Shown here: positions 1 through 16,557 of the stretch, piece after piece
How positions within the stretch are numbered: position 1 is the first letter of the stretch
Layout: each line of letters starts with the position of its first letter
Origin: Sinohyriopsis cumingii
Lineage: Eukaryota; Mollusca; Bivalvia; Unionida; Unionidae
Length of the DNA stretch: 64,000 nucleotides
Direction: 5' to 3'
Assembly (NCBI GenBank): GCA_028554795.2
Contig: JAPYKE020000537.1
Location: 62,001 to 126,000 of the forward strand
Position numbers and translations under genes: made by a program
Notes under the pieces: model-generated
Databases searched by the model: none
What the model saw: only the letters and a program-made list of their open reading frames with translations
Told to the model about the DNA's origin: nothing

Positions 1-1
1 T

Positions 2-3000: not shown

Positions 3001-3100
3001 CTATCAAATCGTGTACCAGAAGCGAGTGAGACTTCCCAATCATTTCACCTTACCGTACGGTCACGTCGGTATTGGTCTGTATATAAAAAAGGAACCCTAG
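2..3100 (+). pseudogene. Protein-primed family B DNA polymerase (Polinton pPolB), 5'-truncated by window, one in-frame stop
   Basis: The frame is open from base 2, so the gene begins upstream of the window. The N-terminal part (to about base 400) is rich in Cys/His pairs, typical of the zinc-binding extension of Polinton polymerases. Exonuclease motifs follow: DFE at 461-469, HNFSGYD at 725-745, YCRSD at 1103-1117. Polymerase motif A (DVCSLYP) starts at 1784, motif B (KVMLNCLWGK) lies at about 2351-2380, and motif C (YFDTDS) at 2639-2656. Between exo and pol sits a GCLFHGCPVCY segment, often seen in this polymerase class. A TAA at 2387-2389, just after motif B, interrupts an otherwise unchanged frame that stays open to the TAG at 3098. 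The protein would be cut before motif C, so this copy should not make active polymerase. Family role: replication of the element from terminal-protein-primed ends. The polymerase call is secure; the decay reading is direct from sequence unless it is a base error. Confidence 0.95.
3080..3092 (+). promoter_or_regulatory. TATA box (TATATAAAAAAGG) for the BIR gene
   Basis: A strong TATA box lies inside the last codons of the polymerase gene (it encodes Tyr-Ile-Lys-Lys) and 66 nt before the ATG of the BIR gene. The same TATAAAAA(A)GG form recurs before other genes of the element, which supports a real promoter. Confidence 0.6.
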
Positions 3101-3145
3101 GCAAGATCGATAGTTCATTGTGACTACCAAGACCGAGCGAACAAG

Positions 3146-3883: not shown

Positions 3884-3911
3884 AGTAACTTTTTACCATA
3901 ATCATCTGTTC

Positions 3912-4367
3912 ATGGATACTTTACAAGAGAACATTCGTGCTTTGCCTGTGGAGTTGAGAGAACGCATTTATCGAGAGCTGGTCAAAATACAAGTGAAACG
4001 TAAAGAACAATTGCATCCGTTACGTCACCGGTGTTTGAACCACTGGTACCTGAAGGCTATACAAGGATTGATTCAATTGAAAGTGTTCCATTGGACAGAC
4101 ATTGATCAACGACCTCCTGGTTATAAAAAGGAATGGTTTGGTATTGACGATTCTATCTACTACATTGTAAACGTACTGCATCGAATTCCAGAGGAAGAGT
4201 TAACGAATTACCAACATCTTTCACGCAATGTCAACTTGGTGAAAGAGGAAACTTCTGAACGAATTGTAATGTGTAGATTAGTGACTCAACGATTTAAATT
4301 CGACACTGAAGTGAAACCATGTTTGTGCAAAGAGTACATTTCTTGTGTCAGACCAAAGAGGATTTAG
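3912..4367 (+). CDS. Hypothetical protein, F-box-like N-terminus, copy 1 of a tandem pair
   Basis: A 151-aa protein starting at the ATG in ttcATGg. Residues 9-27 (RALPVELRERIYRELVKIQ) resemble the start of an F-box (LPxEL...IY..L), a motif that recruits Skp1 to ubiquitin ligases. The match is by eye and short, so the function is only a suggestion. The remainder is helical and basic with several aromatic residues and no recognised domain. The next gene downstream (ATG at 4380) is a paralogue: the first ~37 residues are identical, after which the two diverge. It lies 28 nt after the BIR gene and has no clear TATA box of its own, so it may be co-transcribed with it. Confidence 0.7.
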   Translation: MDTLQENIRALPVELRERIYRELVKIQVKRKEQLHPLRHRCLNHWYLKAIQGLIQLKVFHWTDIDQRPPGYKKEWFGIDDSIYYIVNVLHRIPEEELTNYQHLSRNVNLVKEETSERIVMCRLVTQRFKFDTEVKPCLCKEYISCVRPKRI

Positions 4368-4379
4368 TATGACCTATTC

Positions 4380-4898
4380 ATGGATACTTTACAAGAGAAC
4401 ATTCGTGCTTTGCCTGTGGAGTTGAGAGAAAGGATTTACCGAGAGCTGGTCAAAATACAAGTGAAACGTAAAGAACAATTGCATCCGATACGTCACCAGA
4501 TCTTTAACCACTGGTACTTGAATGGTATAAGAGAACTGATTCGTCAGAAATTCTTTCAATGGTCAGACATTGTTCAAAACTTTGAGGTCGCTAATGATCG
4601 ACATGTTCATGATTATGGTTACTTCGAGATTCACCTAGTGCAATGCATTGAGGAAGACAAGTTAAAGGATTACCAACATATTATACGTGGAATCTACTTA
4701 GAGGAAGAGGAAACACCTAAACGAACTCTGACGTTTCGGTTACAGTATGCAAGATTTAGATTCCCTACTGGAGAACGAAGATCTCTGGCTAGAAAGTACG
4801 TCTATTGCATCCGAAAAAAAGAGAATATAAAAAGAGGCTGCCATGCCACGGTTTATGTCACATGTCATCCAACAGATTCCGTGGAAGGAACTCAATGA
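4380..4898 (+). CDS. Hypothetical protein, F-box-like N-terminus, copy 2 of a tandem pair
   Basis: A 172-aa paralogue of the gene just upstream, separated by 12 nt. The first ~37 residues match copy 1 exactly, including the LPVELRERIYREL segment, and the identity extends into the bases before both ATGs (ttcatgg). The C-terminal two thirds differ strongly (for instance HWYLNGIRELIR against HWYLKAIQGLIQ), so the shared start is either under strong constraint or has been homogenised by gene conversion. The 3' end overlaps the start of the next small ORF. Function unknown; an F-box-like adaptor role is a guess. Confidence 0.7.
   Translation: MDTLQENIRALPVELRERIYRELVKIQVKRKEQLHPIRHQIFNHWYLNGIRELIRQKFFQWSDIVQNFEVANDRHVHDYGYFEIHLVQCIEEDKLKDYQHIIRGIYLEEEETPKRTLTFRLQYARFRFPTGERRSLARKYVYCIRKKENIKRGCHATVYVTCHPTDSVEGTQ
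4826..4834 (+). promoter_or_regulatory. TATA-like box (TATAAAAAG)
   Basis: It matches the element's recurrent TATAAAAA form and lies within the 3' end of the preceding gene. It is only 17 nt before the ATG at 4843, too close for that ATG to sit downstream of a normal start site; the in-frame ATG at 4855 or the gene at 5058 are alternatives. Confidence 0.4.
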
Positions 4899-5067
4899 CC
4901 ATATTCAAACCGTGGATCATTACCATCAATTATTACAAGAACTATATCCATTCAATTTGGGACGACAAGTGGTGTGTGTCTTAGTGACTTGTTTTCTGGG
5001 ATTTCGTTTACCAGCCGATTCCTTGTGGACTCTTTACGATCAGTACTTACCACCTCCATGGCCTTAA
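4843..5067 (+). CDS. Small hypothetical protein
   Basis: A 74-aa ORF that overlaps the end of the preceding gene by 56 nt and the start of the next by 10 nt. A short hydrophobic run (VVCVLVTCFLGF, about residues 43-54) could be a membrane segment. An in-frame ATG at 4855 is an alternative start, better placed after the TATA-like box at 4826. I do not recognise the family. It is supported by compact gene packing rather than by homology. Confidence 0.4.
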   Translation: MPRFMSHVIQQIPWKELNDHIQTVDHYHQLLQELYPFNLGRQVVCVLVTCFLGFRLPADSLWTLYDQYLPPPWP

Positions 5068-5607
5068 ATGGTCACGAAAAACTCCTTTTGCTCAAAGCCT
5101 TGCGTTTTCATCTGGATACTTCTCGACCTCAACAGGAAAAAAAGATTCGTCAACTTTTAGCGACCCAAGACGTGTATGACGATGTGTGTGTAGCTTGTGA
5201 CTTACACCCTCATTGGACAGATGTTCGTGATTGGAAAAAGGGGGGTTTTGAGGCTTGGACCCAAGAAGTGGCCCAGTATGCACAAGAGTTGTTCAAGGAA
5301 AAAAGTTACTTTTCAACCCGTGTTAGTGACGGTGCCAGAAGAACCCGTCACCGAGAACAACCACTCGCTTCAGGACAGGACTGTCATGGACATGCCTGAA
5401 AGGTCATTCCGGGAGGACACTTGTGTGACAATACCTCATGTAGAGACTGTAAGAACATTACACACTGTCCCTAGGACATCTTGGTTACCCAAAACATGTT
5501 GTACAGACACTTGTTTATATTCCACTTTGATCGCTTTGCTGTGTTTTATATTCCTGTACATCACTATTTGGGTTGTATGTATTTTTGTCTTTCGTGTTCA
5601 TATTTGA
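5058..5607 (+). pseudogene. Hypothetical single-pass membrane protein, apparent frameshift near 5299-5304
   Basis: From the ATG at 5058 the frame runs to a TGA at 5397-5399 (113 aa) and ends in a low-quality Arg/Gly-rich tail. The +1-related frame becomes coding-like right after a six-A run at 5299-5304 (VTVPEEPVTENN and onward) and ends at 5605-5607. That second part carries a strong membrane helix (TLIALLCFIFLYITIWVV) near its C-terminus. The simplest reading is one gene with a soluble N-terminal region and a C-terminal anchor, broken by an indel in the A run. The alternative is two overlapping short genes. No family recognised. An AATAAA site lies 8 nt after the stop, so this is probably the last gene of its transcription unit. 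Confidence 0.55.
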
Positions 5608-5614
5608 AACATTC

Positions 5615-5620
5615 AATAAA
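5615..5620 (+). terminator. Polyadenylation signal AATAAA
   Basis: AATAAA eight nt after the stop of the membrane-protein frame and just before the TATA box at 5637. It would end transcripts covering the polymerase-BIR-paralogue block and separates it from the ATPase/capsid block. Confidence 0.6.
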
Positions 5621-5636
5621 CGTGTTCTGAAAAAAG

Positions 5637-5644
5637 TATATAAA
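5637..5644 (+). promoter_or_regulatory. TATA box (TATATAAA) for the packaging ATPase
   Basis: It lies 55 nt before the ATPase ATG and 17 nt after an AATAAA, an arrangement expected at the border of two transcription units. Confidence 0.6.
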
Positions 5645-5691
5645 CTCTTGTCTTGTTTGTTTTTCGTGTCACAAGTGACATTTCTCACACC

Positions 5692-6450
5692 ATGGCTACC
5701 TCTGCTGTCTCTGCTCCCTCTTCCTCTACTGTCAAAGTCATCGACGAACACTTAGATCGTGCCAGTTGGGAGGCTTTGTATCTTCGGCATCCCTTTAACA
5801 TGCTCATTGCTGGACCTAGCGGTTCAGGCAAAACCGAATTCGTCAAACGTTTGATCGAACATAAACATCATTTGATCGATCGGCCCCCTCAACGGATCGT
5901 GTGGTGTTACAAAGAGTGGCAATCGGCGTACAGCCTCTTGCGAGAAAGTCAAGGCGATTCCATCGTGTTTGTGGAAGGCATTCCTAAAGAAGACGATGGC
6001 ATCGTCTCTGACTCCCGTCTAACCCATTTGGTCATTTTCGACGACATGTTAGGAGAAGACGAAGAAGAAATTAAATTGTGGTTCACGCGCAAAGGGCATC
6101 ACCGTAATGCCAGTGTCGTTTACATCACCCAAAATTTGTTTCAACAAAGTAAAGCCCATCGCACCATCAGTCTCAATGCGCATTACGTGGTCTTGTTTAA
6201 AAGCCCTCGAGATAAATCGCAAGTGCAAGTCTTAGCCAAACAGTTAGGAACGCCTTGGCTGACTCAGGCGTACGACGATGCCACTCAAACTCCACACGCC
6301 TATTTACTCGTCGATTTGAAACCTACGACCCCCGAGGATTTGCGATTTCGTACCCACTTGTTTCACCACTGGTGCCAAGACGGAGGACCTGTCCTGTACA
6401 CGTCTCCGTCCTCGACTTCATTTCACTCCTCCCATGAAAAAAATCTATAA
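5692..6450 (+). CDS. Genome-packaging ATPase (FtsK/HerA, A32-like)
   Basis: A 252-aa P-loop ATPase. Walker A is GPSGSGKT at residues 41-48 and Walker B is LVIFDDM at 113-119, followed by a sensor-like TQNLF at 146-150 and a basic segment (SPRDKSQV). Order and size fit the DNA-packaging ATPase of Polintons, virophages and poxvirus A32. It would pump element DNA into preformed capsids. The ATG at 5692 is chosen because it has a good Kozak context (caccATGg) and sits 55 nt after a TATA box. The reading frame is intact. Its TAA stop (6448-6450) lies within the TATAAAAA box of the next gene. Confidence 0.93.
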   Translation: MATSAVSAPSSSTVKVIDEHLDRASWEALYLRHPFNMLIAGPSGSGKTEFVKRLIEHKHHLIDRPPQRIVWCYKEWQSAYSLLRESQGDSIVFVEGIPKEDDGIVSDSRLTHLVIFDDMLGEDEEEIKLWFTRKGHHRNASVVYITQNLFQQSKAHRTISLNAHYVVLFKSPRDKSQVQVLAKQLGTPWLTQAYDDATQTPHAYLLVDLKPTTPEDLRFRTHLFHHWCQDGGPVLYTSPSSTSFHSSHEKNL

Positions 6451-6453
6451 AAA
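6446..6453 (+). promoter_or_regulatory. TATA box overlapping the ATPase stop codon
   Basis: TATAAAAA in which bases 6448-6450 are also the TAA stop of the ATPase gene. It lies 46 nt before the next ATG (6492). Confidence 0.6.
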
Positions 6454-6491
6454 CCTCAGACCCTTTTTCGTCTGTCTCACACAGTGTGAAC

Positions 6492-7457
6492 ATGACGTCC
6501 CTTCAGTCGCATCTTCCCGTCAAATTGATTCGTGCCTTGTATGGCATCAGTCGAGAAAAAGATCCACAAACACGAGCCCGTGTCTTAGAAGCTAGTCTCA
6601 AAGAAGTCTTACGATGGTTCACGGTGACGGCACGTCAATTACTCCAAGGAATCATTCAGATTCCTCATCAAACCCAACGCTTTTTCGATCGAAACAAAGT
6701 CGCTTTGGTCCAACTGGCCGATCCCCGCATCGACACTCAAACCAAAAAACAAATCATTTTGAAACCTGGAGGGAGCGGTACTCTAGGAGGGGTCATCATT
6801 CGCTCACTCTTAAGATGGGATCCTAATGCCCCCAAAGTTATCCCCAAGACAAAAGTTCAACGAAGCCCCAAGAAGAAAAAGAAAAAGACCAAGTCCCCAA
6901 GAAGAATAACTTCTCCAGTGGCAGGACCCTCCTCTTACCAAACACCACCACCATCACCCCGGAAAAAGAAAAGAAGCCCCCAGAAAAAGAAACAGAGAAA
7001 AAGTCCTCAGAAAAAGAAAAGTCCACAGAAGAAGAAAACTAGTCGCAAGAGAGGCACTTCGGCCAGGACGCAACCTTACACTCGCAAGCCACGACCTGCC
7101 ACAGCGGTGACTGTGTCTCCGGCAGCCTCACGTTTGTCCACTTCTCCGTTGATGTCACCAGGAACTGAAGAGTACTTGGAGACGTTGATCACACCAAGAA
7201 CTTCTCCGTTGATGACCCCCAAAAGAACTTCCCCAGTGGCAGGACCTTCCCATTTAGCGGCAGTGGCTGCTGCTCACAAAGTACCTTCTCCCAAAATCAA
7301 AGTCCAAGAAAGATCGGGCATGTTACAAAGTTTACTGGATTTGTCCAAACAAGAACTGGCTCGATTTAGTCCGTTACGTACCCCTGCACGACGTGTCATG
7401 CCTGTCCTCAAACTGATAAAACGTAAAGACAATCAGTGGCGACGCGTTCCAGTATAA
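6492..7457 (+). CDS. Lysine-rich virion-core-like DNA-binding protein
   Basis: A 321-aa protein from the ATG at 6492. The N-terminal 100 residues are helical and end in a Gly-rich hydrophobic stretch (KPGGSGTLGGVIIRSLL). Residues about 120-195 consist of SPKK/SPQKKK repeats, like the SPKK minor-groove motifs of histone H1 tails and adenovirus core proteins. The C-terminal third is Ser/Pro-rich with the phrases TSPVAGPS and TSPLM(S/T)P each used twice. It most likely condenses DNA in the virion or binds chromatin; this rests on composition and gene neighbourhood. The stop TAA (7455-7457) falls within the next TATA box. The SP/TP sites would be kinase targets. Confidence 0.7.
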   Translation: MTSLQSHLPVKLIRALYGISREKDPQTRARVLEASLKEVLRWFTVTARQLLQGIIQIPHQTQRFFDRNKVALVQLADPRIDTQTKKQIILKPGGSGTLGGVIIRSLLRWDPNAPKVIPKTKVQRSPKKKKKKTKSPRRITSPVAGPSSYQTPPPSPRKKKRSPQKKKQRKSPQKKKSPQKKKTSRKRGTSARTQPYTRKPRPATAVTVSPAASRLSTSPLMSPGTEEYLETLITPRTSPLMTPKRTSPVAGPSHLAAVAAAHKVPSPKIKVQERSGMLQSLLDLSKQELARFSPLRTPARRVMPVLKLIKRKDNQWRRVPV

Positions 7458-7463
7458 AAAAGG
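7453..7463 (+). promoter_or_regulatory. TATA box overlapping the upstream stop codon
   Basis: TATAAAAAAGG whose bases 7455-7457 are the TAA stop of the preceding gene. The next ATG (7516) is 63 nt downstream. Confidence 0.6.
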
Positions 7464-7515
7464 CCTGTGACCGAGTAGGGTATCAGTGTTTTTAGGTGTT
7501 CCTAAAGACTCAAAG

Positions 7516-7902
7516 ATGTCACCCTCCAGAAAACCCCAAGGAAAGAAAAGGAAAGGACTACCACCACGTTTAGCCAAACATGGGGACCTGTTATCTGTCC
7601 TGTCCAAAGCTTCTCCACCCCTACGAAAAAAACTCATTCAAACGGCCTCCAAAGAGGTCATCGATACTGTGTGCGAATGTTGTTTGAACGTTTTGAAAGG
7701 CACGATCCCTTTGTCCAAACACCAGAAACAATGCTTAGGCAAACATCGTCACGTTCTTCGGAAAATGGTTCAAAAGAAAATTCCCATTCGTCAAAAAAAG
7801 AAGATGTTGGTCCAACGTGGAGGCATTTTACCTCTCTTGTTAGGCCCCATACTGAAAGGAGTCTTGGGAACCATGTTGGGAGGACTGGTGGGAGCAAGAT
7901 AA
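7516..7902 (+). CDS. Small basic protein with hydrophobic C-terminus (core protein X-like)
   Basis: A 128-aa protein. The ATG at 7516 is preferred over upstream non-ATG codons and lies 63 nt after a TATA box. A basic central region (SKHQKQCLGKHRHVLRKM, then RQKKKMLVQRGG) leads into a hydrophobic, Gly-rich C-terminus (ILPLLLGPILKGVLGTMLGG). This plan, a basic helix bundle followed by RGG and a hydrophobic tail, is common to a small late protein in Polintons and adintoviruses that has been compared with adenovirus pX. It may bind DNA and disrupt membranes during entry; that is inference from the family. The TAA stop (7900-7902) overlaps the next TATA-like box. Confidence 0.7.
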   Translation: MSPSRKPQGKKRKGLPPRLAKHGDLLSVLSKASPPLRKKLIQTASKEVIDTVCECCLNVLKGTIPLSKHQKQCLGKHRHVLRKMVQKKIPIRQKKKMLVQRGGILPLLLGPILKGVLGTMLGGLVGAR

Positions 7903-7907
7903 AAAGG
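7898..7907 (+). promoter_or_regulatory. TATA-like box (GATAAAAAGG) overlapping the upstream stop codon
   Basis: It has the same form as the other boxes with G in place of T at the first position. Bases 7900-7902 are the stop of the preceding gene, and the next ATG (7951) is 53 nt away. Confidence 0.5.
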
Positions 7908-7950
7908 CCTCGGAAGTTCCAAGATCTCAGAATCGACCCCTGACAACCCC

Positions 7951-8595
7951 ATGGAAGGACGAAAACTAGCTTTAGTGCCTTACAAACGATGGATGGAATA
8001 CCATCGGTGGCAAGAACAACGCACCCCGCATTTACCTCCCAATCCCCATTTGAGCGAGATGTCCCAGTTACAACACGAATTGCAATCCTTGATGGATCGC
8101 CAAGATTTGTCCGAAACAGAAAAATCGCAAAAGTACGGTCAACTCTTGCAACGACTGCAACTCTTTCACCAGAAAGCTTTAGACGAAACAGCTCTACCCA
8201 CTTTGAAAGATTTTAAGACCTTGATGAAAAGTCCAGCACCATCACCAGTACCAGTACCAGTACCGGTACCAGTGGTCAAGACAGAAAAAGGAAAAGAAGA
8301 AGAAGAAGAAGAAGGGTTTCAAACTCCACCAGAAAAAGTACGCAAGTTAACAACACCACCTACCTCCAGAATTGGATGGATTAAAAAGATGATGGCCACC
8401 CCTTCTTCCTCACAAGAGAAAAAGAAAGTGAAGACAGAAGTGAAGACAGAAGTGAAACAAGAACCGATATCCCCTGCTCAGACATCCTCCTCCTCTTCGA
8501 CACCTATTGCTGGCCGCACACGCAAAGCCTTGCAATCCAAGAAAATACCCCAAGAGAAAAAGAGTAGCCTCTTCCAAGAGTGGGTGCCTTATTAA
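7951..8595 (+). CDS. Charged late protein with an LVPYKRW-type N-terminus and SUMO-like motifs
   Basis: A 214-aa protein. The opening residues KLALVPYKRW match the pattern at the start of a minor virion protein in several Polintons and adintoviruses. Residues about 35-80 form a Gln/Leu-rich probable coiled coil. A run of PVPVPVPV follows, encoded by repeats of ccagta, then a poly-Glu stretch. Near residue 160 there are three VK(T/Q)E units in a row, which match the SUMO consensus. The C-terminus ends in FQEWVPY. Function is not established; position between the core-like genes and the integrase suggests a virion component. It stops 21 nt before the integrase ATG. Confidence 0.65.
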   Translation: MEGRKLALVPYKRWMEYHRWQEQRTPHLPPNPHLSEMSQLQHELQSLMDRQDLSETEKSQKYGQLLQRLQLFHQKALDETALPTLKDFKTLMKSPAPSPVPVPVPVPVVKTEKGKEEEEEEGFQTPPEKVRKLTTPPTSRIGWIKKMMATPSSSQEKKKVKTEVKTEVKQEPISPAQTSSSSSTPIAGRTRKALQSKKIPQEKKSSLFQEWVPY

Positions 8596-8616
8596 GACAT
8601 CAACCAACACAAAAAA

Positions 8617-9729
8617 ATGGAAAAAGTCTTAGCCAGCATTTACTACGATCCCTCGCATCCTGCAGGTTACGCAGGAGTTCAAAAATTGTATCGTGCTGCC
8701 AAAACGCGACTAAAAAGTCTCCGTTTACCTCAAGTGCAACGATGGTTACAAGAACAATCTACCTACACTTTACACAAACCCATTCGACGCAAGTTTGCCA
8801 GAAGTCGCACCCGAGTGGAAGGTATCGATCACCAATGGCAAGCCGATTTAGCCGATGTCTCTCATTTGGCCAGCTACAATCGTGGTTACAAATATTTGTT
8901 TTGTGTCATCGACGTCTTTTCCAAATTTGCCTGGGTCGTACCCTTGACTTCCAAATCCAGCAGCGAGTTAGTGCGAGCCCTGCAACGGGTGTTGAAACAA
9001 AGCGGTCGTCGCCCTCTTCGATGGCAAACGGACAAAGGCACCGAATTTCTGAACCAAGCTTTCCAAAAAGAATTAAAGAAACGTGACATTCATTTTTTTA
9101 CCACCGAGAATCCCGAAACCAAAGCCAGCATCGTGGAACGTTTTCAACGCACTTTGAAAGAACGCATGTGGAAATATTTTACGCATCACCACACTCTGAA
9201 GTACATCGACATCTTACCGCACCTGGTGCAAGCGTACAACCAATCTTACCATCGAAGCATCGGACGTGCCCCGCAAGACGTGACTCCCGACAACGAAGTG
9301 CTGGTGTTCGAGCGCCTGTTCGGTACGTCCCCGACGAGGGCTGTCCCCAAGAAAAGTGGAGAGTTGACCGTAGGAGATTGGGTGCGCATTGGCAAAACCA
9401 AACGCACTTTCGACAAAGGTTACTTACCTAACTGGACGACCGAATTGTTTCGCGTCACTGGACGAGTGCATGGCCGTCATCCTGCCGTCTATAAATTGGA
9501 AGACATGAACGGAGAAGTACTCAAAGGAACGTTTTATTTGCCCGAGTTACAACGTGTCACCAAAAAAGAAGACGACGTGTACGACATCGAAAGCATTCTC
9601 GAACGCAGAACCCGTAAAGTGGGCAAACGACGTGTCAAAGAAGTCAAAGTACGTTGGAAAGGATATCCACCCAGTTTCGATTCTTGGATCGACGCTTCGC
9701 AAGTCATCGACTATAAAAAGAAGAAGTGA
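8617..9729 (+). CDS. Retroviral-type integrase with C-terminal chromodomain (Polinton INT)
   Basis: A 370-aa, intact integrase. The N-terminal segment (YYDPSHPAGYAG, residues 9-20) is characteristic of Polinton integrases. The rve core carries the catalytic triad Asp77 (QADLADV), Asp139 (WQTDKGTEF) and Glu174 (SIVERFQ), giving exact D,D-35-E spacing. Residues about 320-368 form a chromodomain (VYDIESILERR, then VRWKGYPPSFDSWI), with the aromatic residues expected for methyl-lysine binding. It inserts element DNA into host chromatin, giving 6-bp target duplications. The chromodomain may steer insertion to heterochromatin, consistent with the satellite beside the element. A TATA box for the next gene overlaps its last codons. 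Confidence 0.95.
   Translation: MEKVLASIYYDPSHPAGYAGVQKLYRAAKTRLKSLRLPQVQRWLQEQSTYTLHKPIRRKFARSRTRVEGIDHQWQADLADVSHLASYNRGYKYLFCVIDVFSKFAWVVPLTSKSSSELVRALQRVLKQSGRRPLRWQTDKGTEFLNQAFQKELKKRDIHFFTTENPETKASIVERFQRTLKERMWKYFTHHHTLKYIDILPHLVQAYNQSYHRSIGRAPQDVTPDNEVLVFERLFGTSPTRAVPKKSGELTVGDWVRIGKTKRTFDKGYLPNWTTELFRVTGRVHGRHPAVYKLEDMNGEVLKGTFYLPELQRVTKKEDDVYDIESILERRTRKVGKRRVKEVKVRWKGYPPSFDSWIDASQVIDYKKKK
9712..9720 (+). promoter_or_regulatory. TATA-like box (TATAAAAAG) at the end of the integrase gene
   Basis: It matches the element's recurrent box and encodes Tyr-Lys-Lys of the integrase tail. The ATG at 9735 is only 23 nt away, so the start site would fall very near the initiation codon. Confidence 0.4.
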
Positions 9730-9734
9730 CCATC

Positions 9735-10154
9735 ATGCCCTTTCACACAGCAGCAGACGCAGCTACGTCGACCAGTCCTTCTTCCCCTAGTTCTTCTGTG
9801 CAAGATTTACAAAAACAACCCTTGTGGGTGTGGTGTGGAGAACGTGTGCCTAAAACGCAAATCGTCTTTTTCTGCCAAATCTTCGTGGTGTATTGTGTCA
9901 TCGGGGCAGCCATCGCCAATTTGAGTTTGCAACAAGGAGGCAAACAATTGTGGACCATTTTATTGAGCAGTTGCATCGGTTACCTGCTTCCCAATCCCTC
10001 CCTGAAATTCTCCTCGAACGGGAACGTTGTGTCCAGTGCCAGTGCCAGTCACCACTCCAACAACAACCACAACCAGAACCCCATTTTGGGCGGAGACACA
10101 CCTCTGACATCCAGTAATATCCCCTCGGACAGCCACAGAACTCTGGAATTATGA
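9735..10154 (+). CDS. Two-helix membrane protein conserved in Polintons
   Basis: A 139-aa protein with a Ser/Thr-rich N-terminus, the motif LWVWCGERVPKTQIVFFCQ, a first membrane helix (FVVYCVIGAAIANLSL) and a second (LWTILLSSCIGYLLPNPSL). A low-complexity Asn/His/Ser tail follows. The VWCG...Q..FF.Q and GYLLPNP phrases recur in small membrane proteins beside the capsid genes of related elements, as I recall; their role is unknown. The ATG at 9735 is preferred over the GTG upstream. The stop overlaps the penton start in ATGA (10151-10154), suggesting coupled expression. Confidence 0.7.
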   Translation: MPFHTAADAATSTSPSSPSSSVQDLQKQPLWVWCGERVPKTQIVFFCQIFVVYCVIGAAIANLSLQQGGKQLWTILLSSCIGYLLPNPSLKFSSNGNVVSSASASHHSNNNHNQNPILGGDTPLTSSNIPSDSHRTLEL

Positions 10155-11095
10155 GTCACCAAAACCAATTTTACTTAACCTTACCCAGTGACAGTTCCAT
10201 GGAGGTGTTTCCCCACAACACGTTGTGCTGTTACACGGCCAAATTACCTCAAGCCATCCCCTTAGATCACGAAGCCCATTGGGAAGTGGCTTTAGTAGAA
10301 ATGATTCACCCGACCCAAGTCCTCAATGTCGTTGCCAATCAAAATAAATTTGATGTGGAAGTTTATGACGAGTCATTGCAACAGTGGATGGATATCCATA
10401 GCAGATATAGGCATAAAACCCCTGGCACAAAAAATCGACATTACGCCACCTATCACTTGTTCATTCCCCCAGGTTATTATTTTAGTGGTCAACATTTGGT
10501 CAACACCATAGCCACCAGGTTTAATGGCGTGTTCGGGGAAGCTTTTAAGAATGTCAAGAACAAAACTGTCACCCTGGAATACCACAAAACAGCTCGTCGC
10601 TTCCTGATAAAATTTCCTGAGGATAAAATCATAGGTTTCTATTTTTGCGATGAATTGTTTGACATGTTGGGCGGTAACATGGAGCTGAGGAAGAGAGCAG
10701 AACAACAAAAAAAACCCCCCGAATTATCCATCATTTACGACAACGAGTCTTTTGGCCAGTATTTTCATACCCCGGTAGAACTGAACCAAGGACTGAATTT
10801 GATGTTCGTGTATTCCGATGTGGTGGAATATAACGTGGTGGGACACACCTCCGTGCCGTTACTGCGTGTCATTCCTTTCAAAGTGGATTCTGCCGCAAAC
10901 GCTGACGAGGAAGGTGGAAACACTTACCACGTCCACCGCGAATTTGTCCATCCTCACTATTTGCCGGTCAGCAAGTCGTATTTGGACACGGTCAACATTA
11001 CTATAAAAGGAGATTTGGGACAAGATATTCCATTCACCAAAGGAAAAGTCACGGTGAAACTCCATTTTCGAAAACGGTTCTCTCACGACTCGTAA
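10151..11095 (+). CDS. Penton / minor capsid protein (single jelly-roll type)
   Basis: A 314-aa intact protein. The opening (FYLTLPSDSSMEVFPHNTL) followed by KLPQ...WEVALVEMIHP is the hallmark N-terminus of the Polinton minor capsid/penton protein. The rest is a beta-rich fold ending in VTVKLHFRKRF. It forms the pentameric vertices of the icosahedral capsid. The start overlaps the previous stop by 4 nt, and the small pVI-like gene starts 8 nt after its end, so the structural genes form a tight block. No disruption is seen. Confidence 0.9.
   Translation: MSHQNQFYLTLPSDSSMEVFPHNTLCCYTAKLPQAIPLDHEAHWEVALVEMIHPTQVLNVVANQNKFDVEVYDESLQQWMDIHSRYRHKTPGTKNRHYATYHLFIPPGYYFSGQHLVNTIATRFNGVFGEAFKNVKNKTVTLEYHKTARRFLIKFPEDKIIGFYFCDELFDMLGGNMELRKRAEQQKKPPELSIIYDNESFGQYFHTPVELNQGLNLMFVYSDVVEYNVVGHTSVPLLRVIPFKVDSAANADEEGGNTYHVHREFVHPHYLPVSKSYLDTVNITIKGDLGQDIPFTKGKVTVKLHFRKRFSHDS
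11002..11010 (+). promoter_or_regulatory. TATA-like box (TATAAAAGG) within the penton gene
   Basis: It resembles the other boxes of the element and lies about 100 nt before the ATG at 11103. It may drive the pVI-like and hexon genes, but it is inside a coding region and could be chance. Confidence 0.35.
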
Positions 11096-11102
11096 GTAAG
11101 TC

Positions 11103-11519
11103 ATGTATCCAGTGTACCGAGGGGTGGCTCGACAGCGAGGACACGGTTTAGGAGATATGTTAAAATCGGCCTTTCGTTCGGTGGCTCCGGTGTTGAAACC
11201 GATGGTGACACGCGGATTGCACGCCTTGAAAGATGCGGCACTGACACAAGGCAAAGAATTTCTCCAAAATGTCATCATCGACAAACAAAACCCTAAAGAA
11301 GCCTTCATGAGGGCAGGCAAAAATGTCTTGCTGCAAACGGGCAAAGACATTTTAGGCCGACGAGACACACCTATAAATGCCCTGCAGGCTACCGAGTCAG
11401 GCATTCAGCAAGGACAAGGCAGAAAGAAACGACGAAGAAAACACCCTTTCACCAGACTTCAAGCGAGAAAGGCCAAGAAAAGAAGAACCGTTCGAGACTT
11501 AGACGTTTTCGATTATTGA
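11103..11519 (+). CDS. Small basic capsid-associated protein (pVI-like)
   Basis: A 138-aa protein. Its start (MYPVYRG...QRGHGLGDMLKSAFRSVAP) fits the pattern of the small protein encoded between penton and hexon in Polintons and adintoviruses, compared with adenovirus pVI: an amphipathic Gly/Leu-rich helix near the N-terminus. The C-terminus is strongly basic (GRKKRRRKHP, KAKKRRTV), suitable as a nuclear localisation or DNA-contact signal. Likely roles are capsid cement or membrane disruption. It lies between penton (8 nt) and hexon (17 nt) on the same strand and is intact. Confidence 0.75.
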   Translation: MYPVYRGVARQRGHGLGDMLKSAFRSVAPVLKPMVTRGLHALKDAALTQGKEFLQNVIIDKQNPKEAFMRAGKNVLLQTGKDILGRRDTPINALQATESGIQQGQGRKKRRRKHPFTRLQARKAKKRRTVRDLDVFDY

Positions 11520-11535
11520 GAAAAGAGACAAAAAA

Positions 11536-12848
11536 ATGATGCACCGAGAGTCTTGCGCTTGTTCCAAGACGGAACTGGATCTGTTTGCCATGCCCCCCAC
11601 CATGATGACCATGCAAGAATCTCAGTGGGTGGAATTTCACCCCGTCTCCTCATTGACCGATTCCGCTCCCATCGAGTTTGAAATCAAAGGACAGCCCGAA
11701 GATTACATCGATCTGAATAGCAGTTACTTGTACCTGAAAGTCAAAATTCTAGATAAGACTGGAGGTCCTATAGACACTGAAGCAATAGCTCCCGTCAACA
11801 ATTTCATGCATTCCTTGTTCAGTGGAGTGGACTTGTACTTGAATAACAAACTGGTCAGTAGCAGCATGGATACTTACCCTTATCGTGCCTACCTGGAAAA
11901 TCTCTTGACGTACGGAATAGATGCCAAGAACACTCATCTCAATTCCTGTGTAGTATGGGAAGCTGACGAAGTAGACGAGTTTGAAACATTCGAAACTGAT
12001 CCATCAGCCAAAAAAACCAATGCGGGATTTATAGAACGAAGAGACAGAATCAAAGGAGACAACAAAAGTTTAGAACTGATGGACCGTTTGCATTTGGACA
12101 TGTGGTTGCAAAAAAATATTTGCTAAACGGAGTGAATGTTCGCCTGAGACTGAATCGGAGCAGTGCCGCTTTCCATTTATTGGGTAATGCTGACGAGTAC
12201 AAAACCAAAATCCTAGAAGCCAGACTCTACGTACGCCGTGTGGAAGTGTTACCCAAAGTGGGAAACGACATCAGTCAAACGTTGAGCAGAACGACCGCCA
12301 AGTATCCCATCCGACGCGTGGAAGTGAAAACCTTCACCATTCCCGTTGGACATGCTTCTATGACCGAAGATCATCTGTTTCAAGGACAGTTACCCAAGCG
12401 TTTAATCCTTGGTATGGTCTCGAATTCAGCCTTCAACGGAGCCTTCGATCAAAATCCTTTCCACTTTCAACACTTCAAGGTGAAGAAAGTCGAAGTCAGT
12501 CGCGATGGCAAAACCTTGTGTACCCGACCTTTCGAACCTGACTTTGCCAGCAAAAATTACTTGAGATCGTACTTGTCCCTGTACGAAGCCACCGGTCAGT
12601 TAGGAACCAACACCAGTCACGGCATTACGTACGAAGATTATGCAGGAGGCTACGCTTTGTGGGCTTTCGATTTCACTCCAGACCAAGGCAGCGACTAGGG
12701 ACATTTCCACCCTATAAAATCCGGCCAGATGCGTGTGGAACTTCAGTTTGCAGATAAACTGACAGAGACAGTGAACGTCATCCTGTATGCAGAATTCGAT
12801 AATACCATAGAAATCAACAGTTTGAGAGAAGTCATTCTAGATTACTAG
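11536..12848 (+). pseudogene. Major capsid protein (double jelly-roll, hexon-type), frameshifted and with an in-frame stop
   Basis: The first frame starts at 11536 and shows the N-terminal signature of Polinton hexons (SQWVEFHPVSSL, PIEFEIKGQPEDYIDL, SYLYLKVKI, MHSLFSGVDLYLNNK). It ends at 12124-12126 after a seven-A run (12110-12116). Homologous coding resumes in the -1 frame at the same place (KYLLNGVNVRL) and runs to a TAG at 12696-12698. The same frame then stays open for 49 more codons with the expected C-terminal features (QMRVELQFADKL, NVILYAEFDN) to the TAG at 12846. Two separate lesions therefore break the gene, unless the first is a programmed -1 shift. A double jelly-roll trimer would form the capsid faces. 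The gene is recognised with high confidence; no product of full length is expected from this copy. Confidence 0.9.
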
Positions 12849-12853
12849 AAGTC

Positions 12854-13357
12854 ATGGAAGATTGTTATCCCTCTTTACCTAGTGGAGAAACTTTGGAGAT
12901 GAAATGTGAGGAGACCGTGGAAGGAGAAGAATCTCAAGACAAAGACGAAGAAGTTTTGATGAAGTCGAGATGGCCAGAACAAGAAGCCCATTTAGTCTGC
13001 TGTTTTGCCAAACACTTGGTGGACAAAATGACGGCATTGATCAAGAAAAATTGCTATGGATGTCAAAACGATCATCCCAGTCAAATTCAACACGATAAAT
13101 GCCTGATGTTAAGTCAAGAAGAAAAATTGGACGAGTATCTGGACGAAGCTTGGAGTCTCATCTCGAACGAAGACGTGTTGCACCAGTGGTATAAAGACTT
13201 GCGTGAACATTCTTGTCCACCATTAACCACTCAAGAGATCCATCGTATCGAAGCTCTCCTGAATCAGAGTGAGGAAACAGAACGAATAACCGTTTATTCG
13301 TCAGACATTTTCAAGCAAAAAGTCAGGATCGAATTGACGACGTATTATTACCTGTGA
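12854..13357 (+). CDS. Hypothetical Cys/His-motif protein conserved beside the protease
   Basis: A 167-aa acidic protein. The central motif NCYGCQNDHPSQIQHDKCLM carries four cysteines/histidines that could bind zinc, followed by a helical segment with paired tryptophans (EAWSLI, HQWYKDL). Proteins with this GC..DHPSQ..H..C pattern are found near the protease and capsid genes of related elements, as I recall, but have no assigned function. The ATG at 12854 lies 5 nt after the capsid stop at 12848. The frame is intact. Confidence 0.65.
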   Translation: MEDCYPSLPSGETLEMKCEETVEGEESQDKDEEVLMKSRWPEQEAHLVCCFAKHLVDKMTALIKKNCYGCQNDHPSQIQHDKCLMLSQEEKLDEYLDEAWSLISNEDVLHQWYKDLREHSCPPLTTQEIHRIEALLNQSEETERITVYSSDIFKQKVRIELTTYYYL

Positions 13358-13374
13358 AGAAAAAACACAAAACA

Positions 13375-13935
13375 ATGGATACCTGGGAACTTTATTACCT
13401 TTTGAACCACAGTTCGTACACTGCTTCTTGGAATCCCGTCGTCTGTGCTAAAGATGAACTCCCTCATCGCAAACCTAAAGACCATCAAGCTTACGTGATC
13501 AACACGGACGATAGTCATCTCCCAGGAACCCACTGGGTAGCCGTTTACTTTCCTCAAGAAGGATGTGTGGAATATTTCGATTCGTACGGATTGCCCCCTT
13601 TGGAAGACGATATCATCGACTTTATGAGAAGAAATGCTCAGACCACCCGATTCAATAATGTGAAATTACAAGGCACAGATTCGTTGGTGTGTGGACAGTA
13701 CTGTGTGTATTTTCTGCATCATCGCAGCCTGGGCTATTCCTTAGAACATTTAGTGACTCATTTTGATCCTCGTTCTTCTGCTAGAAACGATGTGAAAGTA
13801 GATCGATGGTTTTGTGACCATTATGCTTATCTTTTGTCTCAAGCTAGGAAACGTAGTGTCCATCAATGGCCTAATGATTTCCAACAGTGGAAATCACAAT
13901 TTCATTCACAACGTTGTCAGCCTTGTTTAAAGTAG
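13375..13935 (+). CDS. Adenain-like cysteine protease (maturation protease, PRO)
   Basis: A 186-aa protein with the Ulp1/adenain fold signature: His53 (GTHWVAVYF), Asp69 (EYFDSYGLPP), Gln99 (KLQGTDS) and catalytic Cys106 in VCGQYCVYFL. Order and spacing match adenovirus protease and Polinton PRO. It would cleave capsid precursors during maturation. The ATG at 13375 is chosen over upstream non-ATG codons; it follows the preceding stop by 17 nt. The frame is intact. An AATAAA site lies about 80 nt after the stop, so this is probably the last gene of the structural transcription unit. Confidence 0.93.
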   Translation: MDTWELYYLLNHSSYTASWNPVVCAKDELPHRKPKDHQAYVINTDDSHLPGTHWVAVYFPQEGCVEYFDSYGLPPLEDDIIDFMRRNAQTTRFNNVKLQGTDSLVCGQYCVYFLHHRSLGYSLEHLVTHFDPRSSARNDVKVDRWFCDHYAYLLSQARKRSVHQWPNDFQQWKSQFHSQRCQPCLK

Positions 13936-14018
13936 ATTGTATTTGAAAAAAATTGTTTGATGTTATCATGTTGAATTATTGTTAAAAATGTTGTTGTTTA
14001 GTGTTAAGTGATTTTTTG

Positions 14019-14024
14019 AATAAA
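14019..14024 (+). terminator. Polyadenylation signal AATAAA after the protease gene
   Basis: AATAAA in a T/A-rich region 84 nt after the protease stop, followed by GT-rich sequence (tgttgtgttttg). It would end the ATPase-to-protease transcripts. The rest of 13936-14142 is noncoding and otherwise featureless. Confidence 0.6.
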
Positions 14025-14142
14025 AAATGTTGTGTTTTGAAAAAAAATGCCTTTGTGGTTTGTTTAGCTAGAAGAATGTTGGATTGATGCTCTTTCATTT
14101 CTTACTATCCCTCTCATGAACGTTACGGCTCGAAAACCGTGT

Positions 14143-14181
14143 GGGGGATGTTTTCCTTCACGTCCGCGCTTTCACTTTAAG
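14143..14181 (+). promoter_or_regulatory. Cassette promoter block 1
   Basis: It contains the shared block gggggatgttttccttcacg followed by tccgcgctttc, then a TATA-like cTTTAAGa about 60 nt before the ATG at 14235. The same block precedes the two other small-gene cassettes. Confidence 0.6.
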
Positions 14182-14234
14182 AACCGGGTTGTTCCCAGTC
14201 TAGCCATCCATTGTCGACTCATCCTCCTAAGAAG

Positions 14235-14588
14235 ATGTGCTCCAAACTAGCTAAGCTCAACGAAGCCTACGTGAATTTGCATAGGGTCAGACACAGTCTG
14301 ATACCGAAGCCAGAAGAAATAGAGAATGTGAGAATGTTAAAAATCACTGAAGACCTGATAGAAGAGCTCTTCAGAGAAGAAATGAACAAGGAGAAAGAAG
14401 AATGGACAGAGAAGTACAGACTTCAGAGACAGCAGCAACAGCAGCAACAACAACAGCAGCAACCTGAAGCTGACAGAGGCTTTGTCGATTGTCGTATCGA
14501 CACCAAAGAATTCTTCTTCTCTTTCCGAAGAAGCAGACCTATCGCCAGAAAGTCTATCCTCAGAGGACATCGCATTCTTAGAAACTAA
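14235..14588 (+). CDS. Cassette gene 1: small Gln-rich helical protein with histone-type 3' end
   Basis: A 117-aa protein from the ATG at 14235 (aagATGt). Residues 1-60 are helical (KLAKLNEAYVNLHRVRHSLI, then LIEELFREEM), a run of about eleven glutamines follows (from CAG/CAA repeats), and the C-terminus is basic (RRSRPIARKSILRGHRIL). No known domain. Its pattern of leucines near the start resembles the two neighbouring cassette genes, so the three look like diverged paralogues. It stands out by having a shared promoter block upstream and a histone-mRNA-like stem-loop 33 nt after the stop, with no AATAAA between. Function unknown. Confidence 0.65.
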   Translation: MCSKLAKLNEAYVNLHRVRHSLIPKPEEIENVRMLKITEDLIEELFREEMNKEKEEWTEKYRLQRQQQQQQQQQQQPEADRGFVDCRIDTKEFFFSFRRSRPIARKSILRGHRILRN

Positions 14589-14620
14589 AAAAGAATGCCA
14601 TAGCAAAAAAAAAAAAAAAC

Positions 14621-14658
14621 AGCCCTTTTCAGGGCTACCCAATACTCTAGAAAAGAAA
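14621..14658 (+). terminator. Histone-type 3' stem-loop and downstream element, cassette 1
   Basis: AGCCCTTTTCAGGGCT (14621-14636) is a perfect 6-bp stem with a 4-nt TTTC loop, followed by ACCCA as in replication-dependent histone mRNAs. The purine-rich GAAAAGAAA (14650-14658) sits 14 nt after it, where the U7 snRNA target is expected. A run of 15 A residues (14605-14619) precedes it. Confidence 0.85.
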
Positions 14659-14659
14659 T

Positions 14660-15007
14660 AACGATCAATTTGCCAATGTGAGTAGATAGAGTAGTGTGAA
14701 AATAAATACTAACTCTCTCTTAAAAATGTGAGGGTATGTGTTTGTGTGTTAGTGTGTTAGTGTTAGTAAGAGCTAAAAGTAAGTTGGTGTGGATAGTAGA
14801 TTAAAATGATTTTTTTTTGGGTTATTGAGGTGTATATTTGGAGATAGATTGGATTGCTTTGCTTATGTGGATAGTCAATTGAAGTGATTTATAAAAAATT
14901 TTAAAATAGTGATGGGTAGCATAAAAAGTGAGTGAGTGTTTCTTTTAGGTCCGCGCGATGTTGTTTTTTTTGGTCATGATCTAGGTAAGATGAATTTTAT
15001 GTTATTA
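14660..15007 (+). other. AT-rich spacer between cassettes 1 and 2
   Basis: There is no gene. The first 90 bases match the sequence after cassette 2 (tttgccaatgtg, gagtagtgtgaaaataaa), so the spacer is part of the duplicated cassette. It then becomes GT-repeat rich (14730-14770). At 14948 a partial promoter block (gtccgcgcgatgtt, tggtcatgat, taggtaagat) repeats that at 15708. Confidence 0.6.
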
Positions 15008-15047
15008 GGGGGATGTTTTCCATCACGTCCGCGCTTTCAGTATAAAT
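15008..15047 (+). promoter_or_regulatory. Cassette promoter block 2 with TATA box
   Basis: The shared block gggggatgttttccatcacg plus tccgcgctttc, then TATAAATT at 15041, 59 nt before the ATG at 15100. Confidence 0.65.
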
Positions 15048-15099
15048 TGAAACTCGTTCGGCAGTCCAGCTACCCTTGTTGATTGATCAACACCAAAAA

Positions 15100-15438
15100 A
15101 TGAACACGAGACTTGAGAAACTGTTGGAGCTTCATGTGCATCTGGAATATGCCAGGCGCATATTAAATGAACTGGCCGCGGAAGCCATTGTCGAGGAGGG
15201 AAGGATAAGAGAGGAGGAAAGAAGAAACAAAGAAGAAGAAGAAAGAAGATATAAAGAGGAAAGAAGAAACAAAGAAGAGGAGGAGGAAAAGGAGAGAAGA
15301 AATTTCAAAATCCCAGAGAGTGAAAATTGGGATTCTGAAGCAACATATCCTGCCTCTGCTCTCTCCCCCCAAAAGGTAAAAAGTAACTGGGGGATAAGAT
15401 GTGTATGTGGCGCCAGGCCTGGAAGGTGCCACCATTAA
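15100..15438 (+). CDS. Cassette gene 2: small Glu/Arg-rich coiled-coil protein with histone-type 3' end
   Basis: A 112-aa protein from the ATG at 15100, which follows a TATA box by 59 nt. Residues 1-38 are helical with regular leucines (RLEKLLELHVHLEYARRIL). Residues 39-75 are an E/R/K/N repeat built on RRNKEEEE, a likely charged single helix. The C-terminus is Ser/Pro then Cys/Arg/His-containing. It shares layout, flanks and 3' end with cassette genes 1 and 3. I recognise no family. The repeat is purine-rich, so low-complexity expansion explains part of it. Confidence 0.6.
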   Translation: MNTRLEKLLELHVHLEYARRILNELAAEAIVEEGRIREEERRNKEEEERRYKEERRNKEEEEEKERRNFKIPESENWDSEATYPASALSPQKVKSNWGIRCVCGARPGRCHH

Positions 15439-15467
15439 CCAGGTGTCCATGAAGTTCCAAACAAAAC

Positions 15468-15505
15468 AGCCCTTTTCAGGGCTACCCAATACTCTAGAAA
15501 AGAAA
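15468..15505 (+). terminator. Histone-type 3' stem-loop and downstream element, cassette 2
   Basis: The stem-loop AGCCCTTTTCAGGGCT (15468-15483) followed by ACCCA and then GAAAAGAAA (15497-15505), identical to cassette 1. It begins 30 nt after the stop codon. Confidence 0.85.
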
Positions 15506-15688
15506 TAACTATTAATTTGCCAATGTGTGTAGGTAGAGTAGTGTGAAAATAAACACTAACTCTTAATTAATAGTGGAAGTGTATGTGTTTGTAAGAGCTC
15601 TGGTATGTTAGTGTGAATAGTAGATTATGGGTTTCTTAGCAAATGTGGAGAGTATAGTTAGGGTTATATTATATGAAATGAGAAAGTA
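15506..15688 (+). other. AT-rich spacer between cassettes 2 and 3
   Basis: Noncoding, and homologous to the spacer after cassette 1 in its first 90-100 bases. It ends at a duplicated promoter block. Confidence 0.55.
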
Positions 15689-15797
15689 GGGGGATGTTTT
15701 CCTTCACGTACGCGCGATGTTTGGTCATGATGTAGGTAAGATCCATTTTATGTTTTAGGGGGATGTTTTCCTTCACGTACGCGCTTTTCGTATAAGA
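15689..15797 (+). promoter_or_regulatory. Cassette promoter block 3 (doubled) with TATA box
   Basis: Two copies of the block gggggatgttttccttcacg start at 15689 and 15758, each followed by a tacgcgc core. Between them lies tggtcatgatgtaggtaag, also present at about 14970. TATAAG at 15791 is 55 nt before the ATG at 15846. Confidence 0.65.
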
Positions 15798-15845
15798 ACC
15801 CACAGTATTCGTTGTTCAAACCATTCTGCAAAGAATACAAAGAAG

Positions 15846-16223
15846 ATGGCGTCAAACCAAATGGACAAATTACAAACCTTGCAAGACGTTTTAGACAACT
15901 TAGGAATAATGGAACAGATGCTAATAAGACTGGTTGAAGACCATTATTCCTATAGTCCCCATCGTGTAAAGATGGAAATTAACAATTTAAGGAAAGCAAA
16001 GGACAAGATTAGTGGTGTTATGAAAGAGATCAAGGAGGAGAAGGAGGATGAAGAGGAAAAGATAAGAATAAGAACATGGAACGAAAAAATTGAAAAAGAA
16101 GAGGAAAATGAGAAGAGGAAGAAAGAAGAGGAGGAAGAGAAGAAAGAAGAGAAGGAGAAAAAAAAGAAGAGAAAGAGTGTTGGAGATAAAATAAGAAGTT
16201 GGTGGAGGAAAAGAAGAAATTAG
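15846..16223 (+). CDS. Cassette gene 3: small Lys/Glu-rich coiled-coil protein with histone-type 3' end
   Basis: A 125-aa protein. The ATG at 15846 has a strong Kozak context (aagATGg). Residues 5-60 form a probable coiled coil (KLQTLQDVLDNLGIMEQMLI), residues 60-110 are K/E-rich, and the C-terminus is basic with two tryptophans (KIRSWWRKRRN), which could bind nucleic acid or a membrane surface. The stop lies only 16 nt before the histone-type stem-loop. Same cassette architecture as genes 1 and 2; the sequence has diverged greatly outside the leucine pattern. Function unknown. Confidence 0.65.
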   Translation: MASNQMDKLQTLQDVLDNLGIMEQMLIRLVEDHYSYSPHRVKMEINNLRKAKDKISGVMKEIKEEKEDEEEKIRIRTWNEKIEKEEENEKRKKEEEEEKKEEKEKKKKRKSVGDKIRSWWRKRRN

Positions 16224-16239
16224 AAGAAGAAAACCCAAA

Positions 16240-16277
16240 GGCCCTTTTCAGGGCCAGCCATATTTCTCGAAAAGAGA
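16240..16277 (+). terminator. Histone-type 3' stem-loop and downstream element, cassette 3
   Basis: GGCCCTTTTCAGGGCC (16240-16255) matches the canonical metazoan histone stem-loop, with C-rich sequence before it (aacccaaa) and GAAAAGAGA at 16269-16277. The first stem pair differs from cassettes 1 and 2 (G-C in place of A-T), so the pairing is kept by a compensatory change. Confidence 0.87.
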
Positions 16278-16330
16278 TAGTCTTTGAATTGCCTACCCCT
16301 TTTTTAAAAAAATTTAAAAAAAAAAAATCC

Positions 16331-16540
16331 CATGTTAAATTCCCCTTGTCCGTAGAGTGACCCACGATTTATTGCCATGTTAAATTCCCCTTGTCCGTAG
16401 AGTGACCCACGATTTTCTCCATGTTAATTCCCCTTGTCCGTAGAGTGACCCACGATTTTTCGCCATGTTAAATTTCCCTTGTCCGTAGAGTGACCCAGGG
16501 GTCCCTGTAATGCTAATTCCCATTGTCCGTAGGGTGACCC
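16331..16540 (+). repeat. Five subterminal 44-46 bp tandem repeats
   Basis: Units start at 16331, 16376, 16420, 16464 and about 16510. Each has catgttaa followed by the core CTTGTCCGTAGAGTGACCC, the last unit with changes. Short repeats of this kind are common inside Polinton terminal inverted repeats. The A/T tract at 16300-16327 precedes them. Confidence 0.8.
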
Positions 16541-16557
16541 CTTTCACTACTGACTAA
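16541..16557 (+). mobile_element. Inferred right terminus of the Polinton and junction with the satellite
   Basis: The element appears to end at ...CACTACT (16551); read from the other strand this end begins AGTAGTG, matching the AG start usual for Polintons. From 16552 (GACTAATGGCTC) the sequence aligns to the middle of the satellite monomer. GACTAA (16552-16557) would be the 6-bp target duplication. The left end is outside the window, so neither TIR nor duplication can be confirmed here. Confidence 0.55.

Follow-up and report, generated by a model that had tools for sequence, protein, structure and literature searches.

Histone-type 3′ ends are regarded as a hallmark of replication-dependent histone genes. 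In giant viruses and virophages, mRNA ends are set by a hairpin downstream of the stop, there with signals of the virus's own and with poly(A). The stem-loop and the histone downstream element (HDE) together direct SLBP- and U7-dependent cleavage that leaves the mRNA without poly(A) (PMC9756948), and metazoans rely on this pair to tie histone expression to S phase (PMC5011920). Here we describe a Polinton, most of which lies in a 64,000-nucleotide stretch of the bivalve Sinohyriopsis cumingii (contig JAPYKE020000537.1, positions 62,001–126,000; hereafter the window), whose end regions hold five small non-histone genes. We consider it probable (roughly 0.8), on the sequence features set out below, that these genes are built as imitation replication-dependent histone genes, with SLBP/U7-processed, replication-coupled mRNAs.

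Like the replication-dependent histone genes of animals, the genes have a small uninterrupted open reading frame (ORF), a short 3′ untranslated region, a 6-bp stem with a TTTC or TTTA loop of 4 nt, an ACCCA-type tail and an HDE at 13 nt, and three of them also have a promoter motif in common with histone genes. They are unlike those genes in that they encode no recognisable histone, are borne by a mobile element and, in three instances, have an AATAAA further downstream. With the hairpin ends of giant viruses and virophages they share the position of the hairpin after the stop, and differ in that they use the signals of the host histone genes.

Stem-loops, downstream elements and promoters of the cassettes

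The element has five cassettes with a stem-loop and an HDE, three at its right end (cassettes 1–3) and two at its left end, the latter outside the window in the stretch before it (L044, C537:52001–62000; Table 1). An earlier sequence-only reading had described three such genes; all three were confirmed, and the full set proved to be five. As that reading had it, each of the three ORFs is followed by a perfect hairpin of 6 bp and 4 nt, beginning 32, 29 and 16 nt past the stop of cassettes 1, 2 and 3, respectively, and by the purine-rich GAAAAGA, which comes after a 13-nt spacer in 3/3. Both left cassettes also have a perfect stem. A hairpin by itself is not rare, because the + strand of the first 16,550 bases holds ten perfect 6/4 hairpins when any sequence is allowed; for the histone-type hairpin consensus, cassettes 1–3 were the sole matches in the same bases on both strands. 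The gathering score of Rfam RF00032 (Histone3; 34 bits) was reached by cassette 3 (35.6) and by both left cassettes (41.2 and 34.7). Pfam gave no histone match for any of the five cassette ORFs.

The outermost stem-loops, left and right, lie at the inner edge of the inverted repeats, with both genes reading outward and their 3′ regions alike at 99% identity. A stretch of 134 nt around the end of cassette 1 matches that of cassette 2 at 90%. The compensatory A-T to G-C change on which the sequence-only reading had based an argument for selection is present, at the outermost pair of cassette 3; alone it is weak evidence of selection, because it is a single difference between near-identical duplicates (cassettes 1 and 2) and a third copy. 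Around the HDE there is a second dyad, a weak one (ATTTCT...AGAAAT at 16262–16278 is an example), with outer pairs kept at 40–45 of 61 sites and inner pairs at 56–60; since most of the counted sites were fetched by an exact stem-loop, we do not build on it. At least some other genes of the element look conventionally polyadenylated: the protease gene has an AATAAA at 14019 and a zinc-knuckle gene near the left end has one at L044:8359 (minus), both without a stem-loop, and a further AATAAA stands in place of a stem-loop at 5615.

The histone genes of the same 2.9-Gb genome served as reference. They lie in a tandem repeat of about 8.3 kb, for which 114 H4 matches were scored, and one repeat (locus L043) carries H4, H2B, H2A, H1 and H3. 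All five have the same kind of stem-loop, scoring 35.0–39.4 bits with RF00032, followed by GAAAAG(A/G) after 13 nt (H4, H2B, H3) or 14 nt (H2A, H1). The HDE core shared by cassettes 1 and 2, CTAGAAAAGA, recurs without a single difference in host H4, H2B, H3 and H1. Across the cassettes the HDE reads CTAGAAAAGA or CTCGAAAAGA with a 13-nt spacer; that of host H2A is CCCGAAAAGG, with a 14-nt spacer. Judged by eye, a TCAATTT(T)GCC-like stretch beyond the HDE is common to the cassettes and is best seen in host H2A.

The likeness extends to the promoters of the right-hand cassettes, each of which is preceded by GATGTTTTCC[AT]TCACGT[CA]CGCGC. From the host H2B promoter, a motif of 23 nt recurs at all three with 0–2 mismatches, and the host H1 promoter has this motif with one base different. 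Thirty shuffles gave longest exact matches of 13–18 nt, against 24 nt for cassette 2 and H2B, and a 47.4-kb satellite control held no copy of the motif within 7 mismatches. In local alignments with the H2B, H1 and H2A promoters, cassettes 1–3 each scored above 200 of 200 shuffles; against H3 and H4 they did not exceed all shuffles, the nearest being cassette 1 with H4 (3/200 as high). The 19-nt identity with the H4 upstream region (Table 1) is just above the shuffle range, and the satellite control likewise reached 19 nt, in a simple repeat.

Table 1 Features of the Polinton and its cassettes (window positions, except where L044 is given)
Feature	Position	Strand	Remarks
Polinton, right-hand part	1..16551	.	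Target duplication, inverted repeats
Integrase (rve PF00665 + chromodomain PF00385)	8617..9729	+	Pfam; frame intact
Adenovirus-type protease ORF	13375..14024	+	PF00770 weak, E=0.0084, below cut-off
Cassette 1 promoter motif	14147..14169	+	1 mismatch to host H2B motif; CTTTAA after, no TATAA
Cassette 1 ORF, 117 aa (MCSKLAK...)	14235..14588	+	No Pfam match over cut-off
Cassette 1 stem-loop AGCCCT-TTTC-AGGGCT	14621..14636	+	Rfam 31.0 bits, below gathering
Cassette 1 HDE, core CTAGAAAAGA	14647..14658	+	As in host H4, H2B, H3, H1
AATAAA, 64 nt beyond stem-loop 1	14701..14706	+	Possible fallback poly(A) signal
Identity with host H4 upstream region, 19 nt (TTTCTTTTAGGTCCGCGCG)	14939..14957	+	
Cassette 2 promoter motif	15012..15035	+	24 nt identical to host H2B promoter; TATAA after
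Cassette 2 ORF, 112 aa (MNTRLEK...)	15100..15438	+	
Cassette 2 stem-loop AGCCCT-TTTC-AGGGCT	15468..15483	+	Rfam 31.0 bits, below gathering
Cassette 2 HDE, CTAGAAAAGA	15494..15505	+	
AATAAA, 64 nt beyond stem-loop 2	15548..15553	+	
Cassette 3 promoter motif, upper copy	15693..15715	+	2 mismatches
Cassette 3 promoter motif	15762..15784	+	2 mismatches; TATAA after
Cassette 3 ORF, 125 aa (MASNQMDK...)	15846..16223	+	Different gene here in some copies
Right terminal inverted repeat	16236..16551	.	~316 bp
Cassette 3 stem-loop GGCCCT-TTTC-AGGGCC	16240..16255	+	Inner edge of right inverted repeat; Rfam 35.6 bits
Cassette 3 HDE, CTCGAAAAGAGA	16266..16277	+	
Left cassette, after 77-aa ORF (MWTT...)	L044 7103-7058	minus	Stem-loop
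Left cassette, after 188-aa ORF (MTETQ...)	L044 8165-8209	plus	Stem-loop

Conservation and genome-wide occurrence of the signals

Conservation was assessed at stem-loops lying in loci that had been brought in by another stem-loop, a sample with a mild bias in that its elements still had at least one intact stem-loop. At such sites the stem-loop was perfect in 17 of 21 copies of the MTETQ gene and 11 of 14 of the MWTT gene, with GAAAAG kept in 21/21 and 13/14, respectively. Among 19 distinct MTETQ sequences, diversity per site was 0.033 in the stem-loop, 0.149 in the spacer, 0.000 in GAAAAGA and 0.30/0.24 in the flanks (0 of 100,000 permutations as low). For MWTT (9 distinct sequences, 11 in a second run) the values were 0.066 for the stem-loop, 0.192 for the spacer, 0.032 for the HDE and 0.18/0.28 for the flanks (p = 0.00025). 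Diversity at the three codon positions of the MWTT ORF (0.122/0.079/0.298) points to coding constraint; a coding-diversity figure of 0.466 for MTETQ was discarded, having come from an ungapped comparison across length changes.

A second sample consisted of six copies picked by their integrase alone, from 109 scored (the best of 45,333 candidates), with the scored integrases 99–100% identical. In these copies the stem-loop and CTAGAAAAGA were kept in 6/6 for cassette 1 and in 6/6 for cassette 2. The sole stem-loop change in these two cassettes was TTTC to TTTA, the loop of host H2A, in both cassettes of copy L087, as if by gene conversion between them. The stem-loop of cassette 3 was seen in 3/6; one of the remaining stretches ended early, and two had another gene whose end was out of range. 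In the latter two (L085 and L088) the cassette 3 position is occupied by that other gene even with integrases 99–100% identical, an apparent cassette exchange at the element's end.

Genome-wide, the exact GGCC-type stem-loop with GAAAAG occurred 30,180 times (14,971 + 15,209 on the two strands), the AGCC-type stem-loop with HDE 20,034 times (9,890 + 10,144) and the promoter motif 30,227 times (14,918 + 15,309); each reversed pattern gave 0. Host H2B genes also match the GGCC-type and promoter patterns and presumably contribute about a hundred to each of those counts, judging from the 114 H4 matches. Numbers of this order (about 30,000 ends of the GGCC type and 20,000 of the AGCC type) imply that Polintons of this family, or their remnants, are present thousands of times in one genome.

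Promoter motif and stem-loop are coupled. Over roughly the first 6.7 Mb of contig C1, a same-strand stem-loop of either type stood within 1 kb, 421–862 nt downstream, for 74 of the 97 promoter motifs, compared with 0 on the opposite strand and a random mean of 1.23. With GGCC-type stem-loops only, the figures were 23/97 within 1 kb and 60/97 within 3 kb, against 3 on the opposite strand and a random mean of 2.29. At 64 of 78 distinct stem-loop sites, an ORF of 60 amino acids or more ended no more than 80 nt before the stem-loop; the same held for 156 of 2480 positions drawn at random and, on the antisense side, for 2 of 84. The ORFs at these sites fall into several families with no evident likeness between them. 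A chance origin was rejected on the consensus matches, the promoter match relative to shuffles, the ORF linkage and the coupling of motif and stem-loop.

The Polinton and its surroundings

We assign the element to the Polinton/Maverick group (adintovirus-like) because it encodes a protein-primed type DNA polymerase B (PF03175, E=7.4e-40), an integrase with a chromodomain, an FtsK/A32-type ATPase (PF04665, E=1.6e-7) and a protein with a weak adenovirus-type protease match; the inverted repeats and a 6-bp target duplication are likewise common to the group. It is 19,765 bp long, the right-hand 16.5 kb occupying window positions 1..16551 and the left end lying 3,213 bp before the window, at L044 position 6787. 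The duplication, GACTAA, stands on both sides (right copy at 16552-16557), and the terminal repeats measure about 316 bp, the right one containing a 45-nt minisatellite at 16338-16542. The copy in the window looks damaged, with an in-frame stop near 2389 in the polymerase frame and an overlapping frame after the ORF at 11503-12126. Pfam gave no match for that ORF or for 10118-11095; their position makes them candidates for the capsid proteins (major/minor).

Among other genes, the ORF at 3101-3883 carries a BIR (inhibitor of apoptosis) domain (E=1.4e-23), and 3867-4367 and 4368-4898 are tandem duplicates (209 nt at 86%) with no Pfam match. None of six end-region proteins has an RB-binding LxCxE motif. 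The integrase protein has 2548 relatives, the named ones among the 120 listed being from oysters and amphioxus; the MTETQ protein has 20, at 60–96% identity. The element is inserted in a satellite array (window 16552-64000 and L044 1-6786) with a unit of about 370 bp in which one frame is open. The units hold another recurring insertion, with frames at 39005, 44077, 54682 and 57062.

Explanations for the histone-type signals and their meaning

That the cassette transcripts undergo histone-type processing and arise in replicating cells is suggested because the host's own signals occur in the right order, spacing and strand, with the histone promoter motif in three of the five. Host SLBP would bind the stem-loop of the cassette RNA, the HDE would pair with the host U7 small nuclear ribonucleoprotein, and the RNA would be cut between stem-loop and HDE and carry no poly(A) tail. 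Transcription of the three right-hand genes would be started by the factors that drive the host H2B and H1 promoters. Expression would be confined to cells replicating their DNA (S phase, cleavage embryos, germ line), when the DNA of the element could replicate. The signals, their match to the histone genes of the same host, their linkage, orientation and conservation are there to be read in the DNA; from these we infer processing, absence of poly(A), timing and benefit to the element. The evidence suggests, then, that the cassette genes are expressed via the cell's DNA-replication-linked histone system. The sequence-only reading had come to the same interpretation, and most sequence tests (host signals, conservation, promoter motif) favoured it, with processing, lack of poly(A) and S-phase expression still to be understood as predictions.

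Several results weigh against this interpretation. The sequence-only reading was right that no AATAAA lies between stop and stem-loop in cassettes 1–3, but the three internal cassettes (1, 2 and MTETQ) have one 59–64 nt past the stem-loop (64 nt in cassettes 1 and 2), which would allow for polyadenylated forms; in host H4 itself, an AATAAA occurs 21 and 76 nt past the stem-loop. The Rfam check that it had proposed, with a sub-threshold score as counter-evidence, gave a divided answer: cassette 3 passed the gathering score, but cassettes 1 and 2 stayed below it at 31.0 bits each (E=1e-5). The divergent promoter of the left pair had no clear host histone match, the best being H4, with 8/200 shuffles as high. 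Imperfect stem-loops made up 4/21 (MTETQ) and 3/14 (MWTT) of the sites not chosen by their own stem-loop. In the integrase-picked sample the spacer was as conserved as the stem-loop (0.0 and 0.048 versus 0.018), and promoter motif diversity (0.046–0.050) was hardly less than that of nearby intergenic DNA (0.068–0.076), so this sample speaks for persistence and not for contrast. A search for host U7 gave an RF00066 match of 29.3 bits, below cut-off, with a model that matched controls in 6/14 genomes. A pattern search gave seven matches (reversed control 2), two of them similar to the integrase region of the element. Judged by eye, neither the RF00066 match nor any of the seven was a convincing U7 with a following hairpin. 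For host SLBP there were 0 matches to PF15247, which we do not read as absence because the control genomes matched nowhere either, and a typed human domain gave one match at E=7. Scans of viral_contigs returned no DNA relatives, which leaves a single genome in which the trait is seen.

Some of these points have a natural place in other explanations. A histone gene fragment comprising promoter and 3′ end might have been captured once and since hitch-hiked, out of use, by copying and gene conversion. The 90% likeness of cassettes 1 and 2 over 134 nt, the 99–100% identity of the scored integrases (109, the best of 45,333 candidates), the L087 loop change common to both cassettes, as expected from gene conversion, and the conserved spacer of the integrase-picked copies would all follow. 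Such a relic should not show what the more diverged sites do, however, where the stem-loop and the HDE are much more uniform than the spacer and the flanks, nor coding constraint in MWTT, nor the same ends on unrelated ORFs; we consider it very improbable, if the least so of the alternatives. Alternatively, the hairpin could be a part of the inverted repeat that serves DNA replication, end recognition or packaging, its histone likeness being secondary. The outermost stem-loops, at the inner edge of the repeats and with 3′ regions shared at 99% identity, would suit such a role, yet the internal cassettes (1, 2 and MTETQ) lie outside the repeats and have the same signals after their own ORFs, and a role at DNA ends accounts neither for the HDE match to the host nor for the coupling of promoter motif and stem-loop. 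We give this explanation very little credence.

The AATAAA motifs after the three internal cassettes raise a further explanation, that the mRNAs are polyadenylated there, 59–64 nt downstream, and that the stem-loop acts otherwise, in RNA stability, export or the stop of transcription. The HDE would then be without function, yet it is the least variable part of the 3′ end (0.000 and 0.032 per site), and past the stem-loops of cassette 3 and of the outermost left gene there is no AATAAA on their own strand within the element. This seems to us the least probable of the alternatives, and imitation of replication-dependent histone genes, with processing by SLBP and U7, remains the reading that we favour.

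Among the papers listed by searches of an open-access library, none concerned promoters or 3′ ends of histone type in Polintons or in mobile elements of other kinds; Polinton genes and histone-type signals are both known, and to our knowledge their union is not. Matches to Rfam Histone3 need not be histone genes, because the 30 genome-wide matches examined by eye (the best of 75 scored, from 589,472 first-look candidates) have the flanks of the element. The family also offers a natural set of thousands of variants for working out, in an animal genome, what rules govern histone promoters and SLBP/U7 processing. A bolder proposal, which we hold at even odds, is that the element took over the host's replication-dependent histone programme whole (promoter code, SLBP/U7 3′ processing and timing in the cell cycle) to express a single temporal class among its genes; with about 50,000 such 3′ ends amplified, far above the number of histone genes, competition for SLBP, U7 and the factors of the histone locus body may result. 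A mobile element whose non-histone genes carry the host's own version of the histone 3′ end, three of them with the promoter motif, would provide a testable link of transposition and virus-like replication to the host S phase.

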